Shown here: piece after piece, positions 2,615-64,000 of the stretch | How positions within the stretch are numbered: position 1 is the stretch's first letter | Layout: each line of letters begins with the position of its first letter | IMG/VR virus record: IMGVR_UViG_3300031673_000012 | Span: 1 to 64,000 of that record | Source of the DNA: a virus | DNA length: 64,000 bases | Direction: 5' to 3' (one strand) | Position numbers and translations under genes: made by a program | Notes under the pieces: generated by a model | Told to the model about the DNA's origin: nothing | Database searches by the model: none | Seen by the model: the letters and a program-made list of their open reading frames with translations, nothing else

Positions 2615-2899
2615 TCATAATTCATTAAAATCATGAGTTACAGTTTCAATAGAAGGGCAAAAATCAAATTCATATATCTCACTAGTTTCTTCTATACATT
2701 CACATATCCCATTTTCAATATCTGCTGTATTAAGATTACCACAGAAAATTACATTATCTAATTTTAGAGCTTCTATTGAAAGGAATAATATATTTCCATT
2801 CCTTTCATCCGACGTATATCCGATTTCATCCAAACAATTAGCCAATATAATGGCTTCTGTATTTGTTTTACAAGTGATTTTAAAAGCTGGTGTTTTCAT
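2615..2899 (-). CDS. Acidic hypothetical protein
   Basis: 94 aa, acidic, with four cysteines (CKTN, CLDE, CGNL, CECIEE region) and a pattern of short strands and helices. It begins MKTPAFKITCKTNTEAIILA. No family recognised. The ATG overlaps the TGA of the 48-aa gene upstream by the ATGA arrangement. The small size and acidity fit an inhibitor or DNA-mimic type protein, but that is speculation. Confidence 0.55.
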   Translation of the reverse strand: MKTPAFKITCKTNTEAIILANCLDEIGYTSDERNGNILFLSIEALKLDNVIFCGNLNTADIENGICECIEETSEIYEFDFCPSIETVTHDFNEL

Positions 2900-3042
2900 T
2901 GTGAGTGGGTTTGTTTATAATAATTTTCAAAAGAAATCTTACCTCTTACATAAGCACTCATCGCACTATTAATAGGTCTCTTATTACGATTATATTTTTT
3001 AGCACCTTTAGTTCTACCTGAACCTTCTTTCTTTGCAGCCAT
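2896..3042 (-). CDS. 48-aa strongly basic protein
   Basis: A complete frame of 48 codons. The N-terminus MAAKKEGSGRTKGAKKYNRN is very rich in Lys, Arg and Gly, and the C-terminus is SAYVRGKISFENYYKQTHSQ. It overlaps the downstream gene by 4 nt (ATGA), which supports translation. The composition suggests binding to nucleic acid or ribosomes. No family recognised. Confidence 0.55.
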   Translation of the reverse strand: MAAKKEGSGRTKGAKKYNRNKRPINSAMSAYVRGKISFENYYKQTHSQ

Positions 3043-3104
3043 TATTAAACTATTTATTAATTAGTGAAAATGCCCACAAATTGTTTTCAGTAAGATGACA
3101 ATAA

Positions 3105-3281
3105 CTATACAATCCATATTTTCAATGGGATTGATATTCTTTTATCATCTCTAACCCAAGTAGTTATTTTGCCGTAAACTTTCCACCTACGTGGAGTTCC
3201 ATCAGCATTTTTTGCATTCATTTCATAAAGAATGTCACCATGCTTGAGTTGTTTTGCTTCTTCAATTGTTATTGGTTTCAT
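3105..3281 (-). CDS. Small conserved-type phage hypothetical (ILYE/NADGTPRRWKV protein)
   Basis: 58 aa when started at the ATG at 3281 (MKPITIEEAKQLKHGDILYE). An upstream ATG at 3362 would overlap the neighbouring gene by 80 nt and is less likely; with 3281 the gap is one base. The layout (short helix, then GDILYE, then NADGTPRRWKVYGKITTW) resembles small phage and prophage proteins I have seen without an assigned function. It probably forms a small beta barrel. Function unknown. Confidence 0.6.
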   Translation of the reverse strand: MKPITIEEAKQLKHGDILYEMNAKNADGTPRRWKVYGKITTWVRDDKRISIPLKIWIV

Positions 3282-3282
3282 A

Positions 3283-3606
3283 TCAAGTATGTATTTGCCA
3301 TCCATTTGTTGGCTCCAAACAAACTGAAAATGTTGGGGCACCTCCATCCCCACCTCGATCATGAATTCCGTGAAATATTATTCCACCATTTCCTTTGAAC
3401 AATCCCGTAAGTTCGTCATGTCTAGAAAAATAAAATGAATAAGGAGCAAAATCAATTGAAATATATGTTTGAATAGGTCTCCCATCTATTTTATATGTCT
3501 CTTCTGTTTTTTTCAGACGATTTAAACAGTTTTGAAGACTATTATCCTTAATTTCCTTTGCAAATTTAAGGGCTTCATCAAGTTTACCTTCTGTAAGATC
3601 TTTCAT
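3283..3606 (-). CDS. DUF4120-like protein
   Basis: 107 aa. An N-terminal helical part (LDEALKFAKEIKDNSLQNCL) is followed by a DFAPYSFYFSRHDE segment, then GGIIFHGIHDRGGDGGAP and the ending CLEPTNGWQIHT. This order matches what I recall of DUF4120, a small family common in Bacteroidota and their mobile elements. No catalytic role is known. It supports a Bacteroidota host. Confidence 0.65.
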   Translation of the reverse strand: MKDLTEGKLDEALKFAKEIKDNSLQNCLNRLKKTEETYKIDGRPIQTYISIDFAPYSFYFSRHDELTGLFKGNGGIIFHGIHDRGGDGGAPTFSVCLEPTNGWQIHT

Positions 3607-3612
3607 TACTTA

Positions 3613-3801
3613 TTATTTTAAATATTTATCCCCACCATAAATCATAGCTCTCAAATACAATCTTACATCATTAGCAATTTGAGCTTTAGTAATTTCTTTA
3701 GCTAATTGTTTTCTTAACTCAGGATCAGCAATTCCACTTTCAGCTCTTTCCCGATATCTTAAAACTCTATCTCCAAGAGTTTTTAAATTACCTATTTCCA
3801 T
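3613..3801 (-). CDS. Small helical hypothetical protein
   Basis: 62 aa, charged and helical (GDRVLRYRERAESG, then ELRKQLAKEITKAQIANDVR). No family recognised. It starts just downstream of the terminator at 3813-3840, so it may depend on read-through or on a weak promoter inside 3802-3894. It is spaced 6 nt from the DUF4120-like gene downstream. Confidence 0.5.
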   Translation of the reverse strand: MEIGNLKTLGDRVLRYRERAESGIADPELRKQLAKEITKAQIANDVRLYLRAMIYGGDKYLK

Positions 3802-3812
3802 AGTTTTAAGTG

Positions 3813-3840
3813 TAAAAAGGGAGCCACCACCCGCTCCCTA
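3813..3840 (-). terminator. Strong rho-independent terminator
   Basis: Minus strand: GGGAGC (3838-3833), loop GGGTGGTG, GCTCCC (3824-3819), then a TTTTTACAC tail. This is a textbook intrinsic terminator about 57 nt after the stop of the 98-aa gene (3895-4191). Confidence 0.75.
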
Positions 3841-3894
3841 ATTAATCCAAGTTATGAAAACAACCGGACCCTTTGTGGTGAAGGGCTTTAGTCC

Positions 3895-4191
3895 TTAGCA
3901 AAGATTCTCCTGCAAGTAAGTTGCTAATTCAATTTTGAGAACCCTACGTTCTTCTCCTTTCAGAGTAGCAATTTTTCTTTCCATCGTTCTGATGGTATTC
4001 CTGACTTTCTGACGGAAAGATTTCCTTTTGAGAACTTCTTTGCAATCTCTTGGGTACTTATATTTAAGAACCCTGTGCATGATTACTTTTTGAACTGTAA
4101 CCGTTTTGTTGGCTTGATCCAAACTCCCCTTTGTAGTAGGTTTTGTAACCTTCTTAATGGTAGTTTTGGCTTCTTCTCTCTTTTTTGTCAT
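3895..4191 (-). CDS. Basic protein with YxYP module
   Basis: 98 aa, very basic. The N-terminal 35 residues are Lys/Thr-rich and look disordered. Residues 44-63 read YKYPRDCKEVLKRKSFRQKV and continue as a charged helix. The same YxYP-(D/K)-C/Y ... Y/F-R pattern occurs in the proteins at 7028-7450 (residues 86-105) and 9767-10642 (residues 84-103). A shared nucleic-acid- or partner-binding module is inferred; I know of no named family. It is monocistronic, between a repeat-type promoter (4225-4246) and a strong terminator (3813-3840). Confidence 0.6.
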   Translation of the reverse strand: MTKKREEAKTTIKKVTKPTTKGSLDQANKTVTVQKVIMHRVLKYKYPRDCKEVLKRKSFRQKVRNTIRTMERKIATLKGEERRVLKIELATYLQENLC

Positions 4192-4224
4192 AGCCTTTGA
4201 ATTTGAGTTGCATTATTAAATTTA

Positions 4225-4246
4225 TAATATAAATATAATAAATATA
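4225..4246 (-). promoter_or_regulatory. Repeated AT-rich early promoter-like element
   Basis: A perfect 22-nt copy of the element at 2319-2340, located 34 nt upstream of the ATG of the 98-aa gene. Together with the terminator at 3813-3840 it frames a single-gene transcription unit. Confidence 0.5.
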
Positions 4247-4286
4247 ATGACCCCAATTAACAGAACCTGAAAGTTTTTTTACCCTT

Positions 4287-5042
4287 TTAGTTTAAAGCTG
4301 CAGTTCCATTTCCTTTACTTCCTATTCCCTTATTAATTGCCATACTCCTACCATCACGATATCCAAGAGATTCCCCAACTTGTGCACTTAATATTGTCCT
4401 AGCCCTTCCATTTTTTAAATTTGGAAAAAAGTGAGTTACTGCATCATATAATTTGATATCATTAGCTAATACTAAGGCGTTAATTTGCTTTGATTCCCCC
4501 ATAGCTCGAACTTTAGCTTCTTTTAACTGAATATCAATTCCATGGCAAGCACCCATAAGATAAGCTCTCCTAAAAGCATTTCGTTTTTCACCATAATATT
4601 TACCTTCACTATCCCAAGCTTTTATTTCAAGTCTTCTTAACCTATTATCTAATTGATCTGCCAGAAATTTAACTACTATAACATTATCCTTAGTACCAAT
4701 TAAATTCACATACATATTAAACTTATTATTAGTATCGCGAAATCTACTAAAGATAACATCACAAAGATTATGTTTAGCAAGAACATCATATAATCTATAA
4801 ATCCATTTACCCTCATTCTTCTTAGCATAAACATCTCTATAAATCGCTCTTCCTATTTTTTGTTCCCTATCTGGATCATAAGCAGAAATATCTGCCATTT
4901 CCAAATTGTACTTTAAAAGTAAGGTTTGAACTTTCTCTGCAGCATTAGCAGCTTCTTTAAGAGACCCAATTACTTCAGCCCCCTTTTGAAGGCTAAGGAG
5001 TTTTTGAACCTTCTCAATAATTGATTTTGTTTGTTCTGTCAT
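4287..5042 (-). CDS. DUF2786-domain protein
   Basis: 251 aa. Residues 5-50 (IIEKVQKLLSLQKGAE, then NAAEKVQTLLLKYNLEMADI) match the DUF2786 N-terminal helical domain. The middle (WIYRLYDVLAKHNLCDVIF, then NLIGTKDNVIVVKFLADQL) fits the domain that usually follows it, and the end (VGESLGYRDGRSMAINKGI) is the usual tail motif. The family is common in phages and prophages, with no proven function. The gene is 4 nt from the membrane protein upstream. Confidence 0.75.
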   Translation of the reverse strand: MTEQTKSIIEKVQKLLSLQKGAEVIGSLKEAANAAEKVQTLLLKYNLEMADISAYDPDREQKIGRAIYRDVYAKKNEGKWIYRLYDVLAKHNLCDVIFSRFRDTNNKFNMYVNLIGTKDNVIVVKFLADQLDNRLRRLEIKAWDSEGKYYGEKRNAFRRAYLMGACHGIDIQLKEAKVRAMGESKQINALVLANDIKLYDAVTHFFPNLKNGRARTILSAQVGESLGYRDGRSMAINKGIGSKGNGTAALN

Positions 5043-5045
5043 AGT

Positions 5046-5375
5046 TTAATCTTTATCATTTTCAAGATCATATTCTTCACCCCAATATGTATCCTCCAAA
5101 TAATTAGGTATCTTTTTTTCTAGATATCTTTGTAGTTCCTTTTCCGTTACTCCTCGTTTTTTATTACCATTAGCTCGAGGTTGTTGAAATACATAAACCC
5201 ATGTTTCAGAATCAAAATCATAAAACATGGGTTGCCCTGGATCAGGACTTGGTGGAATTTGTGTTGAAGTACTCGGAATTGGGTTTTTATTATAAGTTAA
5301 ACCAATCCAAAGTCCTAACAGTAAACTTATAATTACACCAATCAATATTTTTAAACCTATCCCTACTTTCTTCAT
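5046..5375 (-). CDS. Single-pass membrane protein, N-in anchor
   Basis: 109 aa from the ATG at 5375; two codons further upstream there is only a TTG. Residues 1-26 form a membrane anchor (VGIGLKILIGVIISLLLGLW), then a Pro/Ser-rich linker, then a soluble acidic C-terminal domain (YFLEK-like ELQRYLEKKIPNYLEDTYWG). The topology suggests a periplasmic or envelope-facing domain on an inner-membrane anchor. No family recognised. Confidence 0.6.
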   Translation of the reverse strand: MKKVGIGLKILIGVIISLLLGLWIGLTYNKNPIPSTSTQIPPSPDPGQPMFYDFDSETWVYVFQQPRANGNKKRGVTEKELQRYLEKKIPNYLEDTYWGEEYDLENDKD

Positions 5376-5377
5376 AA

Positions 5378-6178
5378 TCAATACTTCAATAGGTATCCTA
5401 ATACTTCTTGATCCATTTCATCTTTCTTGCTTTCTTTAGCTTTTAATTCCTCATTATGATTTAATTGGTAATTGAAAGCATTATATACTAACCAATCATT
5501 GGGTTTTATCCCAGGCATCTGAATAAGTTCTTTTTCCATTCTCTCTACCACATCCTCCTGAAGAGATATGGGAAACATGGTTTCTTCTACTACTTCCTCT
5601 ATTCTCATCATCCAATCGGAAACTGGTTGATCTTGGAGTTCCCTATAAGTTTCTGATATCTCAGATGATTCAGCAAGAAATTCAGAAGTCATTCCTAAAA
5701 CAGCTTCAAACGAAGTTTCTTTTCCCAATTTAGGAGTGTGCATTGAAACTATTTCTTTGGTATCCCCAACAGAAACTGTTAATCCATTTGAACAAATTTG
5801 ACGAAAAAATCCCATTTGAAAATGGTAACGAATTGACCCATCATAGGAATTAATTACCGTAATTCTAGGGAATATTGCATCTTTAGGATTAATAATTAAT
5901 GTTTTATCTCTTAATATAAAATCAATAAAAAATCGAGCCCATCTCTGAACCCTTATTTTTTTATCAACCTTAAAGAATCGAGATATTTCTTGTTCAAATG
6001 CAGGAACAATTACCGCATTTGGAACAAGGTAATAAAGGTCAGAGCAGTATTGCACTACTCTTTTAATCCCATCAGGTTTAGTAACCACAATAGCATGGCT
6101 TAACCCAGAAGGATGTTCAAATCCAGGAGATACTTCCTCGATAGGAACTTTCACTACAGGAAAGAAAATGTCTGTCAT
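5378..6178 (-). CDS. DUF932-family protein
   Basis: 266 aa. The core VINSYDGSIRYHFQMGFFRQ, followed by ICSNGLTV (residues 107-136), is the signature of DUF932 proteins, found in many phages and plasmids including crAss-like phages. The C-terminal 130 residues are helical and carry a conserved-looking LVYNAFNYQLNH motif. A function is not established; related proteins have been suspected in recombination or anti-restriction. The repeat-type promoter lies 25 nt upstream, so it leads an operon with the two genes downstream. Confidence 0.7.
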   Translation of the reverse strand: MTDIFFPVVKVPIEEVSPGFEHPSGLSHAIVVTKPDGIKRVVQYCSDLYYLVPNAVIVPAFEQEISRFFKVDKKIRVQRWARFFIDFILRDKTLIINPKDAIFPRITVINSYDGSIRYHFQMGFFRQICSNGLTVSVGDTKEIVSMHTPKLGKETSFEAVLGMTSEFLAESSEISETYRELQDQPVSDWMMRIEEVVEETMFPISLQEDVVERMEKELIQMPGIKPNDWLVYNAFNYQLNHNEELKAKESKKDEMDQEVLGYLLKY

Positions 6179-58752: not shown

Positions 58753-59562
58753 TTAAATTAATACTGGTAAATCTTTTAAAATATCTGCAATCTTATCATC
58801 ATTTATCATCCCGTCATAAAGATATGGTCCCTCATCCTGCTGGTCCGGCTCGTCTCCGCTTTCATCATAAGTATGACTACCATGAGAAGAAATCTCAAAA
58901 CAATAGACAGTACCTTCAAATATCTGCCTGTCAATAAGTTTATCCGGCCCCTCAATAGTACAAGCCTGAGAGAATCCCAGTCTCCTTAATTCTCTGGCAG
59001 CTAAATCATCCCATTGCCTGTAAGTAAGTCCCTTCTTCTTAGTTTCTATCAATGCGTAATGATAGGCTCCATTTGCCCTACCATTAAATACTGCATCTGC
59101 AGCCGTTTCGTAATCCCGGCAAGCTGACATTGCTATATAGTTAAGCCCTTCAGTCGGAGACAATACCTTATTCACTATCTCTTTATGTATAGGGAATTGT
59201 GGGTTATGATAAACCCTTGCCTGCAATAAATTATCAGGTTGTATGGCCCGTGTATTTGATTCTGAGAAACAAGTATCCATGATAAACAAAAGAAGATCAC
59301 CGGGCTTCATTCTCGAAACAACCGCTTTTAATTCAGACAGGAATCTGGCACAAGTTGATTGGGAGTCTTTGAATTTCCTAAATGTGTAATAAGGCCAGAT
59401 TTTAAGAACCGCCTTTTCAAAGTCAACCTGGTCATTGGGAGGCCCGGCAAGATCATTCGCCGTTCCGGGATAATTGCCACAGACAATACTAACAACTGTG
59501 TTATCGGTAAAGTCAGGCAATTCCACTACATCATTATTCCCAAACCATTTCTTAAAGCACAT
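58753..59562 (-). CDS. Caspase/metacaspase-like peptidase with permuted catalytic blocks
   Basis: 269 aa. Cys block: PGDLLLFIMDTCFSES with C98 (canonical DxCHSG). Then YIAMSACRDYETAADA, NGRANGAYHYAL and GFSQACTIEGP (141-206), the usual metacaspase C-terminal half. The His block, normally before the Cys block, is instead at the C-terminus: FEISSHGSHTYDESGDEPD, then QQDEGPYLYDGMINDDKI (H227). Canonical metacaspases read SGHGSQ..D..GDEPDG.DE.L...DDE before DxCHSG. The fold may be intact by permutation; activity is unproven. The gene is less AT-rich than the virion genes. Confidence 0.8.
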   Translation of the reverse strand: MCFKKWFGNNDVVELPDFTDNTVVSIVCGNYPGTANDLAGPPNDQVDFEKAVLKIWPYYTFRKFKDSQSTCARFLSELKAVVSRMKPGDLLLFIMDTCFSESNTRAIQPDNLLQARVYHNPQFPIHKEIVNKVLSPTEGLNYIAMSACRDYETAADAVFNGRANGAYHYALIETKKKGLTYRQWDDLAARELRRLGFSQACTIEGPDKLIDRQIFEGTVYCFEISSHGSHTYDESGDEPDQQDEGPYLYDGMINDDKIADILKDLPVLI

Positions 59563-59998: not shown

Positions 59999-62900
59999 TT
60001 ATGGTATTATTATTGTAGCTCTTTTCCCATTATATGTACCTACTGTTCCCCCAAATGTACCTACTGTATTTACAGGTGGTGGTTCTTCTTCTTCTTCACC
60101 TTCATAAACTCCCATGGCCGGAGGATCTTCCCATTCTTCTAAATCAAAATCATATATTACCCCACTAACAGTAAGCCCTTCCCCAATTACAGGAGAAGTT
60201 TCTTGCAAATGAAAATCACTTCCTGAAACAAATTCTGGGTCTTCACCAATAGCATTAGCCTCTTGGGATATTGCCGCCTGCCACGTTGATAATGAACTAT
60301 AATTGGTACTACCTATTCTCCCTATATAACCAGTTGTTGTATAATAACAATTATAATCCAATGTAATATTAGTAAGATCACTTAATGAACCTATTGAAAA
60401 TAATCTTTCCGTTGCATTATAAAATATATTATTTCTTATATTAACATTTGATCTTGTTGCAGTAAAATTATATATTCTTATCGCTTGTCCTGTTACCCCA
60501 TCTGTTCTTTGATAATGACCAAATCCCCCTCCAGAATTAACTATTGTATTATGTTCAAAATAAATATTTTGAGCAGTTGCTGTTTCAGGTCTAAAATAAA
60601 ATTCAAAACCATATTCGCAATTTGAAATAATATTATTTCTTAAGACAAGGTTTTGTGCTGTATATGTTCCAGTATATCCCTGTGCAGATAAACCAGCATC
60701 ATAAATATTATCTACCTTACATCTCTCAATAGTTATATCACGAATCCCTTCCCACATTTGCAACCCATTCCCAAAACGTACAGAATAATCACTATTCTGA
60801 TCTACACCCCCGATATAACTAATATCAAGATCATAAAAATTAATATAATTACCTCCATAAGCCCATAAACAAGCACCCCAATATCTAAAATCAAGATTCT
60901 GAAATGTTACATATTGTTTTCCTGACATTGATGTTAACCCATATTTATATAATGCACATTCAATATCAGTATAATAAGTAGCAGGATTACTTGTAGAATA
61001 AAGTCTTATCCTATTATTAACATGATCATACCAAAATTCTCCCTGAGCATCAAGTGTAGGTGTTGCCGACATTATCTTAACCCCACAACTTGCTTCTCCA
61101 TTAAAAATAAGATTTCCTACATCAACTGTAAATGTAGCATCTGAGTTTTGCCAAATATTTGTTAAAACTTCAGACCAATCACCTGTACTATTTTCTTCCT
61201 TTGAACCTAAGAATAATGGTTTATTACCTGTATCATAAGCACCATAATACATATAATAAGATGATGTTCCAGAATTTGGAATTAAAGCCTCTCTCCATAT
61301 ACTACCCCTTTTAAAGAATACAGAATCTGATTCCAAAAATGTAAAATTATTTACCTTACCCACCGTTTCCCATGCCAAAGCATCAGAAGTTCCTGTATAA
61401 CTATCATTACCCCCATTCTTTACATAATATTTAATCCCCCCACTTGGTTCACCTATAAATTCATAAGCCCCAATAGCTGGAGGATCATCCCATGGCTCGT
61501 AATCATAATCGTAATCTGATACTGGAGTATAACCTTCTCCTATAGCTGGAGAAGTTTCTAATAAATGCCAATCAGAAGAACTTACAAAATTTGGATTATA
61601 ACCTTCCCAATTATCAGAATATGTATATCCGGTACCTGGAACATAATCTCCATGATCACCTGTATCTTCAGTGTAAAGTGGCACATTAGAATTACCATTA
61701 CCATAAAAAAGATTATTTGTAATACGAACATTAGTATTATCCGTTTCTCCCCATCCAATAATAGGTGCTTGATAAGAACCATAATCAAATCCAACTATAA
61801 TATTATTTCGAATATTATAATTATCCGTTGTAACTCCACTCGGGAGAAACATACCAGTACCAACATAAACACCCGATTTCGTAACATCAATAGATGTTAT
61901 AGTATTATTATATATATAAACATCCTCTATAGTATTAATATCATATTGTGACCAACTTGTAGAACCAATTCCATATATTGATCCGCGAGTATACCCAGAC
62001 CCATTCTCACCAAGATTAACAATCAGATTATCATAAATCCAAATATCCCGATAATAACTTGGGTAATCATGACCATAAGCATATTGTGGCCATATAAAAG
62101 AATATATTATTCCCTGAGATACATATTTAATTAAGTTGTTATTTATTATTATCCCATTAATATAAGCCTCAAGATTAATACCTCTTTCAAAATGATCCTG
62201 AGTAGAACTGAAGCCCGTTGTATTATCATGTATCCATGTACCATAATTTGTTGCTCTCTTATGAGTACCAGTTACATCTATTTCTCCAACAATAGTATTA
62301 TCATGTATCTCACATTCATCCATATTATACCAACATTCTATAGCAAAATTATAACTACCCGTTGGTCGTTCATCAACTGTTATATCACAATCATAAATTT
62401 TGAATCCCCTGTTAAAGCCAGTTACCATCTTAATACCATAACCATTTGATCCCCAAGCTCTGGCTGTTTGTGTTATTATAACATCATGACATAAGAATCC
62501 GTTCTGTGTATTAAATTCCAAATTACCATGCCCTGATGTACCAGATAATAATCCACAATTAGTAAATACACAACTATAAATCTGGTTACCATTAGACCAA
62601 TATGAGGGCATTACCTCATCTGGTTCAAATATATTTGTAGCAGTCCAAGAACTTGAATGTTGCCCATTAAAATATACTCCCTTATAATAAAAGTTATTAA
62701 AATCACAATCATGTATAATAACATTATGCCTATAGTTAATTGATATACACATATAGGTACTTGATCCATTACCATTAAATGTTATTCCACTTATAGATTG
62801 ATTTCCCTCACCATATAACCATCCTTCATCTGTTTCAGCCTCAATCATTGCCTCACTACTACTCCCAGTAAAAGTTGATGTTATAGTAACTACACTCTTC

Positions 62901-64000
62901 CCTGCTCCTTCAATAATAACTCCATTCTCTAAAATACATTGAGTAGCTTGACTATAAGCCCCTGCATTAATATGAATTTTATCTCCAACAGTAGTTGCTC
63001 TAGTACAAGCATAACCTAATGTTGCCCAAGGTTCACTAGCTGAACCATCTCTCCCTGGATCATCAACACCATCTTCATCAACATAATAAATATTTTCTTC
63101 ACCAACAAACTCATAAGCTCCCATAGTAGCAGTAGATGGAGTATCCCATGGAACTCCATCATAATCATAATTTGAATATGCTACAGTACCTTCACTTATA
63201 ACTGGTGAACCTTCCTGTAAATGAAGATTAGTGGTACTTACAAATAAAGGATTACTGGTAATATTACCTGTAGATAAATCAACCCTTACTTGAGTAATTG
63301 ACCCACTAATATATACTATATTATATCCATTATTATAAAAATCATTATAAGTAACATCTATATCTGTAAATGATGCTGATTCCCCCACCTGAATACCAAA
63401 ATAAATAGGATAATTATCCCAACTGTGAAATATATTATTTTGAATTGTAGAATTAGTAAAAGTCCCATTAGCTGTCCATCTTATACCATTATAATTATAT
63501 CCAGATCCACCATAAAATGTATTATTTCGAATATGAAAATTATCAAGAGTTACACTATATCCACCATTAGCAGCTAAATCAACAAGCATCCCCCAAGTAG
63601 AAGTATAATCAGTATAACCTATATTATCCAATACATTATTATAAATATAGAAATATGTAAAACTTTGATTATAAGTACCAGCAGTGGTAAAAGCTATACC
63701 ACGTGGATTTGATTTAATATAATTATTATAAATATAAACATAATTATATGTTCCCTTTTCAACCTCAATAGCTGCATTAGTATGACCAACTTGAGTTGGA
63801 CTATAATAAGAAATTTGATTTCCAGTAGTAGTTGTAAAAGTATTATCATGTACTGATATTGTAAAAGGATAAGATCCTTTTGTTGATGAACCATTATCCG
63901 CATTACTAAAATCTAATTTTGCAGCTCCTATAAATGTATTATCATAAAATTCAACTCCACCTTGTAAATGAAATATTTCTGAAAAGAAATTCCATCTTCC
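59999..64000 (-). CDS. Giant parallel beta-helix protein (tailspike/fibre), N-terminus beyond window
   Basis: The frame is open to the right edge; 1333 residues are visible. A TTG at 63631 is only an internal Leu codon. It is full of N-rich beta-helix coils (YIYNNYIKSNPRGIAF, IWIYDNLIVNL, LRNNIISNC). Three copies of a linker (FVS-x-x-x-x-HL-x-E-x-SP-x-I-x-EG ... PW/EW-D/E-x-P ... G-A/V-YE) separate beta-helix modules, at about 61.46-61.6, 63.1-63.25 and 60.1-60.24 kb. The C-terminus has an acidic Glu/Pro stretch then TVGTFGGTVGTYNGKRATII. It is probably a receptor-binding or glycan-degrading spike. Confidence 0.75.
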   Translation of the reverse strand, partial: GRWNFFSEIFHLQGGVEFYDNTFIGAAKLDFSNADNGSSTKGSYPFTISVHDNTFTTTTGNQISYYSPTQVGHTNAAIEVEKGTYNYVYIYNNYIKSNPRGIAFTTAGTYNQSFTYFYIYNNVLDNIGYTDYTSTWGMLVDLAANGGYSVTLDNFHIRNNTFYGGSGYNYNGIRWTANGTFTNSTIQNNIFHSWDNYPIYFGIQVGESASFTDIDVTYNDFYNNGYNIVYISGSITQVRVDLSTGNITSNPLFVSTTNLHLQEGSPVISEGTVAYSNYDYDGVPWDTPSTATMGAYEFVGEENIYYVDEDGVDDPGRDGSASEPWATLGYACTRATTVGDKIHINAGAYSQATQCILENGVIIEGAGKSVVTITSTFTGSSSEAMIEAETDEGWLYGEGNQSISGITFNGNGSSTYMCISINYRHNVIIHDCDFNNFYYKGVYFNGQHSSSWTATNIFEPDEVMPSYWSNGNQIYSCVFTNCGLLSGTSGHGNLEFNTQNGFLCHDVIITQTARAWGSNGYGIKMVTGFNRGFKIYDCDITVDERPTGSYNFAIECWYNMDECEIHDNTIVGEIDVTGTHKRATNYGTWIHDNTTGFSSTQDHFERGINLEAYINGIIINNNLIKYVSQGIIYSFIWPQYAYGHDYPSYYRDIWIYDNLIVNLGENGSGYTRGSIYGIGSTSWSQYDINTIEDVYIYNNTITSIDVTKSGVYVGTGMFLPSGVTTDNYNIRNNIIVGFDYGSYQAPIIGWGETDNTNVRITNNLFYGNGNSNVPLYTEDTGDHGDYVPGTGYTYSDNWEGYNPNFVSSSDWHLLETSPAIGEGYTPVSDYDYDYEPWDDPPAIGAYEFIGEPSGGIKYYVKNGGNDSYTGTSDALAWETVGKVNNFTFLESDSVFFKRGSIWREALIPNSGTSSYYMYYGAYDTGNKPLFLGSKEENSTGDWSEVLTNIWQNSDATFTVDVGNLIFNGEASCGVKIMSATPTLDAQGEFWYDHVNNRIRLYSTSNPATYYTDIECALYKYGLTSMSGKQYVTFQNLDFRYWGACLWAYGGNYINFYDLDISYIGGVDQNSDYSVRFGNGLQMWEGIRDITIERCKVDNIYDAGLSAQGYTGTYTAQNLVLRNNIISNCEYGFEFYFRPETATAQNIYFEHNTIVNSGGGFGHYQRTDGVTGQAIRIYNFTATRSNVNIRNNIFYNATERLFSIGSLSDLTNITLDYNCYYTTTGYIGRIGSTNYSSLSTWQAAISQEANAIGEDPEFVSGSDFHLQETSPVIGEGLTVSGVIYDFDLEEWEDPPAMGVYEGEEEEEPPPVNTVGTFGGTVGTYNGKRATIIIP

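Follow-up and report, generated by a model that had tools for sequence, protein, structure and literature searches.

Here we describe a caspase/metacaspase gene of a tailed phage in which the part of the catalytic domain that carries the histidine lies behind the part that carries the cysteine. The gene lies in the window (the whole stretch of DNA analysed, 64,000 nucleotides, positions 1 to 64,000 of IMG/VR virus record IMGVR_UViG_3300031673_000012; Table 1). The transposed caspase domain is real, is conserved in phages and is under purifying selection. As read from its sequence, the product is likely to be a catalytically competent, cytoplasmic, metacaspase-like protease of caspase fold with a rewired core, probably Arg/Lys-specific, that would act late and probably in lysis.

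Table 1 Features of the permuted caspase locus (positions in the window)
Feature	Position	Strand	Description
Permuted caspase/metacaspase gene	58753..59562	-	ATG start, 269 aa; order N - Cys/p10 - His
N block, aa 1-88	59299..59562	-	Met-Cys start (conserved), β1-α1-β2-α2; from profile and model strands/helices
Cys block + p10, aa 89-215	58918..59298	-	From profile positions
Transposed His block, aa 216-269	58756..58917	-	From profile positions and His-block profile
Catalytic Cys98 codon	59269..59271	-	Invariant in 7/7 permuted proteins
Catalytic His227 codon	58882..58884	-	Invariant in 7/7 permuted proteins
Small upstream ORF, 69 aa	59565..59774	-	No TM segment; ends 2 bases before caspase start
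Small ORF, 82 aa	59734..59982	-	One strong TM segment (aa 37-55); holin-like by size/hydropathy only
Downstream MTTQQFFKGL membrane protein, 281 aa	57896..58741	-	Three hydrophobic segments in N-terminal 152 residues; syntenic marker of the slot

Order of the catalytic blocks

The 269-residue protein belongs to peptidase family C14 by profile, matching both Pfam Peptidase_C14 (PF00656; E=1.4e-6, above the curated cut-off) and a canonical caspase profile that we built from 19 canonical caspases. The SxHG and DxC motifs of the C14 dyad are present as S225-x-H227-G228 and D96-x-C98, invariant in seven homologues, and the open reading frame and both catalytic positions given in an earlier note on this DNA were confirmed in the translation. 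The departure from the family lies in chain order: canonical C14 peptidases place His/β3 before Cys/β4, whereas all seven proteins read N-Cys-His. The protein has no signal or transmembrane segment, and PHROGs gave no match for it. In the Cys block, β4 leads straight into D96-T97-C98-F-S-E, and a variable loop (residues ~103-130) follows; the p10 part carries SAC...TAADA and the final canonical strand, ...IEGPDKLIDRQIF. The His block comprises β3 (TVYCFEI), S225-S226-H227-G228, the acidic loop DESGDEPDQQDE, D255-D256 and α3.

Against the canonical profile (E=1.6e-38, summed across three pieces), the window protein is matched in three abutting pieces whose model order 1-2-3 is read as 1-3-2: model positions 6-70 fall on residues 27-93, 123-261 on residues 91-215 and 61-117 on residues 213-265. 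Only ~5 model positions are lost, and the His block has therefore been moved, neither lost nor duplicated. Searched by separate block, as the earlier note had proposed, the protein is recognised by a His-block profile alone at residues 216-264 (E=1.1e-12, Z=100000). By phmmer against the PDB, residues 212-262 align with residues 69-119 of 3bij, that is, with the His block that precedes the Cys block in that protein, and residues 143-203 with residues 269-333 of AtMC9 (metacaspase 9), in the p10 part. The order Cys block before His block, first proposed from the letters alone, is thus borne out by the profile pieces and by the PDB alignments.

The breakpoints are the same in all seven proteins (N block, positions 3-70; Cys block, 114-123 to 255-260; His block, 61-66 to 115-118, of 260). 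One of the cuts flanking the His block falls just before β3 and the other just before β4, so that α2 leads directly into β4 (KPG-DLLLFIMDTC); the strand GDLLLF does run into IMDTC with the His block absent between them, as had been claimed. The His unit comes after the native C-terminal strand (DRQIF-EG-TVYCFEISSHG), which is the protein end in canonical relatives from the same genomic slot (L064, ...EGNEEYMDRIVFQ-stop; L071, ...DGPERLFERKVFEPILF-stop). Judged from these alignments, the rearrangement is a segment transposition, in which the β3-His-acidic loop-α3 unit (residues ~216-265) would have moved from between α2 and β4 to just behind the native C-terminus. The earlier note had left the choice between a transposed and a circularly permuted domain; the former holds and the latter is rejected, because the change from N-His-Cys to N-Cys-His reverses the cyclic order. 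The layout of type III metacaspases, with p10 N-terminal to p20, does not apply either: p10 stands between the N block of p20 and the His unit of p20, the chain starting with the former and ending with the latter.

Conservation and selection

The record is metagenomic, and an assembly chimera or a local rearrangement in a single contig could in principle have produced the order. A 42-kb contig from dataset 3300031578 differs from the window by 1 mismatch in 13,245 bases. Six further permuted proteins share the breakpoints: L015 and L016 (48-49% identity), L062 and L063 (found via the downstream neighbour gene), and L068 and L069 (found with a profile of the permuted group). Distinct permuted proteins thus number seven, from seven IMG/VR datasets (the window and six others), the other six being 31-49% identical to the window protein. 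Overall dN/dS is about 0.07-0.13 (0.07 for L015/L016, 0.11 for L062/L069) and that of the His block is ~0.14 in both pairs, which shows selection on the permuted frame. Around the gene we found no recombination repeats or invertible element, just chance-level short matches (about 12-20 nt), and the flanks of the His block likewise hold no repeats beyond these; a 12/13 match near both His-block ends (58776-58788 and 58915-58927) is not regarded as significant. The seven distinct proteins from seven datasets exclude the assembly error that the earlier note had named as fatal to its reading, and the chance of a chimera is negligible.

Across the seven proteins 47 columns are invariant. They include C98, H227, D96, D44 and S225, the acidic-loop residues D233, D237, E238, D240, D243 and E244, and the D255/D256 pair.

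Outside the permuted group, the order was found nowhere that we searched. A scan of viral contigs for the junction (GD, six hydrophobic residues, DxC) returned only the near-identical contig; it missed the other permuted members because the junction differs in them. One scan of genome contigs gave 13 caspases or caspase-like proteins, with the permuted order in none. Profile searches at strict cut-offs, which omit weaker relatives, gave no full-length permuted match in 396 Bacteroidota (a run without a positive control), 82 Calditrichota and 393 Bacteroidales genomes, all of these sets being samples; the Bacteroidales matches were canonical, as were the Calditrichota matches examined. Homologues with the same order, which the earlier note had proposed to seek in both phages and Bacteroidota, thus exist in the former (six proteins) and did not appear in the Bacteroidota genomes at these cut-offs.

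Predicted fold

An AlphaFold2 (AF2) run with three homologues, without canonical fragments, left the domain unfolded (pLDDT 36.7). With canonical His-block and Cys-block fragments as added alignment rows, the model reached pLDDT 73.4 and pTM 0.76, with the element order β1-α1-β2-α2-β4(C98)-β5-α-β3(H227)-hairpin-α3. In this model the His block forms strands at 219-225, 228-232 and 242-248 and a helix at 255-262 (block pLDDT about 80-86), so the unstructured C-terminal block that would have spoken against the earlier reading was not seen. The loop after the Cys block (residues 103-130) is of low confidence. The best PDB matches by Foldseek were the plant metacaspases AtMC9 and AtMC4 (E 4e-6 to 1e-3), and the best viral matches were giant-virus caspases; the sequential alignment gave TM about 0.5 and r.m.s.d. 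about 10 Å, values that are expected for a transposition and prove no superposition.

The caspase sheet has the order 2-1-3-4-5-6, with His at the end of β3 and Cys at the end of β4 (PMC4357240). A moved β3-α3 unit would need a return crossing from β6 to between β1 and β4, for which ~12 linker residues are available. The C-terminal strand would then slot back between β1 and β4 and rebuild the His/Cys dyad and the S1 pocket from three non-contiguous segments.

A domain-swapped dimer offers another geometry, in which constraint on the C-terminal His unit keeps it from the core of its own chain and it instead completes the active site in a second copy; the protein would then be an obligate dimer with activity controlled by assembly. 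The His unit does sit at a free C-terminus after a short linker (about residues 205-217), the classic swap arrangement, and the run with three homologues left the domain unfolded; the monomer model from the deeper alignment, however, orders the His block with pTM 0.76, and metacaspases are reported as active monomers (PMC4357240). We consider such a dimer unlikely and favour completion of the active site within one chain.

Active site and regulation

The acidic S1 pocket of TbMCA2 is formed by Cys92, Asp95, Ser156 and Asp211 (PMC4357240). Equivalents of three of the four are present, assigned by motif and not by structure (D44 for Asp95, S225 for Ser156, D96 for Asp211); the Cys92 position is Pro41 in the window protein and Cys in L062, L068 and L069. 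An Arg/Lys-specific cysteine protease is therefore predicted from these three S1 positions together with the invariant dyad. The conserved acidic loop suggests, by analogy with other metacaspases, dependence on Ca2+. The earlier note had taken CFSES for a deviation from the usual Cys motif. CFS itself is no deviation, as canonical Calditrichota relatives have DSCFSG, but CFS[E/D] is a mark of the permuted group.

The activity of the permuted caspase is a prediction, and the transposition could instead have destroyed catalysis, leaving a pseudo-protease retained for binding or regulation. The change of the G after CFS to E/D in the permuted group and the lack of the Cys92 equivalent in the window protein would fit such a loss. 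However, loss of catalysis should have let some active-site positions drift, and here seven proteins, six of them only 31-49% identical to that of the window, agree without exception in the dyad, in three of four S1 positions and in the acidic loop. A pseudo-protease is accordingly very unlikely, and we retain the reading as an active enzyme.

The loop after the Cys block corresponds to a region at which canonical metacaspases may undergo processing. Cleavage at this point would put Cys and His on separate chains, whereas the canonical large subunit holds both. Self-cleavage after the Cys block could thereby create a split-dyad active site whose formation or decay (through Ca2+ or dimer exchange) serves as a timer or switch of lysis, a new form of caspase regulation that we offer as a rather doubtful conjecture.

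Canonical and transposed forms in one slot

Caspases of canonical order occupy the same slot in L064 (943-1698) and L071 (5693-6493), directly upstream of the same type of membrane-protein gene as the permuted ones. Each matches the canonical profile in a single piece (E 1e-78 and 1e-72); as both belong to the training set of that profile, the result is the one-piece order and not the E-value. They share with the permuted proteins the slot, an MC N-terminus, the downstream gene type, the tree clade and a C-terminal [E/D]Gxxxxxx[D/E]RxxF ending, and differ from them in the canonical N-His-Cys order and, in L071, in a reduced acidic loop. From just past the caspase through the endolysin, L071 (6519-7936) is 82% identical in DNA to L041, in which the gene has the permuted form; inside the slot the two show no DNA-level alignment. 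More generally, all the syntenic caspases, permuted or canonical, can start with Met-Cys (as MC or MTC), the next residue being aromatic or hydrophobic (window 59557-59562, minus strand; L064 from 943, L068 from 1942, L071 from 5693), and the seven permuted proteins have this Cys without exception.

In a tree computed on reordered sequences, the permuted proteins together with L064, L071 and L073 form a single clade (support 92/97). The permuted group requires one change in 88% of bootstrap trees, and the support of its branch is weak (73/82). The simplest reading of these sequences is that the rearrangement probably arose once, within a phage-specific caspase lineage whose slot adjoins small membrane proteins and an endolysin. 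A 27-sequence tree that placed the permuted group beside the long branch L010 was unreliable and was replaced by the reordered-sequence tree.

Genome context and role

By its sheath, tube, tape measure, gp25 and baseplate wedge, the phage of the window is a myovirus; it also has genes for a major head protein, scaffold, head maturation protease, portal and large terminase; the L041 phage has siphovirus-type tail proteins. The portal resembles those of phages from human faeces, and the host of the phage group probably belongs to Bacteroidota. Large β-helix-like proteins precede the caspase region in the window (59999-63631) and L041 (7856-9520; Pfam support in L041 only).

The arrangement of the window, with an MTTQQFFKGL-type membrane protein immediately downstream of the caspase, recurs in L041, L062, L063, L064, L069 and L071, the membrane protein of the window being 49% identical to the one behind the permuted caspase of L015/L041. 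L068 is the exception: there the caspase is followed by a protein that resembles, by eye, the C-terminal part of the window neighbour. The MTTQQFFKGL proteins of the window and L041 carry this extra C-terminal domain, and its counterpart in L068 (3044-3499) is a stand-alone protein of 151 residues with a signal-like N-terminus, which suggests a gene fusion. Behind the slot, L041 and L071 encode an M15 peptidase; L064 and L068 have DUF5675 close by, and several loci have small TM ORFs upstream of the caspase. In the window phage we recognised no endolysin. From this gene content the slot is a probable lysis neighbourhood. Near the permuted caspase of L062 (2906-3478), L063 (1406-1948) and L069 (189-761), a small late-region gene resembles, by eye, an ECF-type sigma factor.

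The protease would stay cytoplasmic, act probably late in infection and most likely cut a membrane, lysis or host protein. A role in virion maturation was set back, as the phage has a head maturation protease of its own. The protein may instead serve counter-defence or host takeover and merely occupy a variable slot beside lysis genes. Such a slot, canonical or permuted within and 82% identical behind, is typical of arms-race genes, and canonical caspases in other phages have other surroundings; against this, the small upstream ORFs are tightly coupled to the caspase, and the MTTQQFFKGL protein and the M15/DUF5675 genes make up a constant neighbourhood in several phages. We regard counter-defence or takeover as a credible possibility short of probable, and prefer a function in lysis.

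Two phages with a canonical caspase have other genes of note directly beside it. In L005 a patatin-like phospholipase (3668-4792; PF01734, E=1e-21) directly precedes the caspase (4803-5612), a possible protease-lipase pair. In L026 the caspase (2671-3453) overlaps a 318-residue gene (3446-4402) that has, by eye, an amidase-like SWGAK stretch and no Pfam match; this is perhaps a further case of a caspase beside lysis genes.

Relation to known caspases

Bacterial type I metacaspases/Peptidase_C14 (GSU0716, 3bij; Calditrichota L027 and L028) share with the phage protein all sequence blocks, the His/Cys dyad, the Asp positions of the S1 pocket, the acidic loop and the p10 motif SxC...D..G...GA. 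They differ in holding the His block between α2 and β4, where the phage form has it C-terminal to p10, and in having C[H/F]SG in place of CFS[E/D]. The nearest analogue of the phage form, as a natural change of segment order, is the type III metacaspase of algae derived by secondary endosymbiosis, in which p10 precedes p20 (PMC5756287), a type that a large survey found absent from prokaryotes (PMC6426788). In the algal form p20 is intact and all of p10 stands ahead of it; in the phage protein the break lies within p20, from which the His unit has been displaced. A circularly permuted caspase-2, reported as an engineered and working tag-removal enzyme (PMC7760212), likewise has a rearranged chain order; it is man-made and keeps the cyclic order, whereas the phage transposition is natural and non-circular. 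That enzyme was the only permuted caspase found in the open-licence literature. These open-licence papers, beyond which an earlier mention is possible, describe no permuted or phage-lysis caspase in the present arrangement, in keeping with the suspicion of the earlier note that the form is undescribed in phages.

Implications

The phage protein looks like a natural re-wiring of a well-known enzyme fold. Few catalytic cores are naturally permuted in a non-circular way, and a single locus that shows both the earlier and the later state is rarer still. Such proteins will score too low or be split in profile searches that assume the canonical order. The finding points to the caspase as a recurrent component beside the lysis genes of tailed phages. 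With canonical and transposed forms in one slot, natural proteins allow direct tests of the evolutionary step, of the rules by which the caspase sheet folds and of how chain order affects zymogen control.
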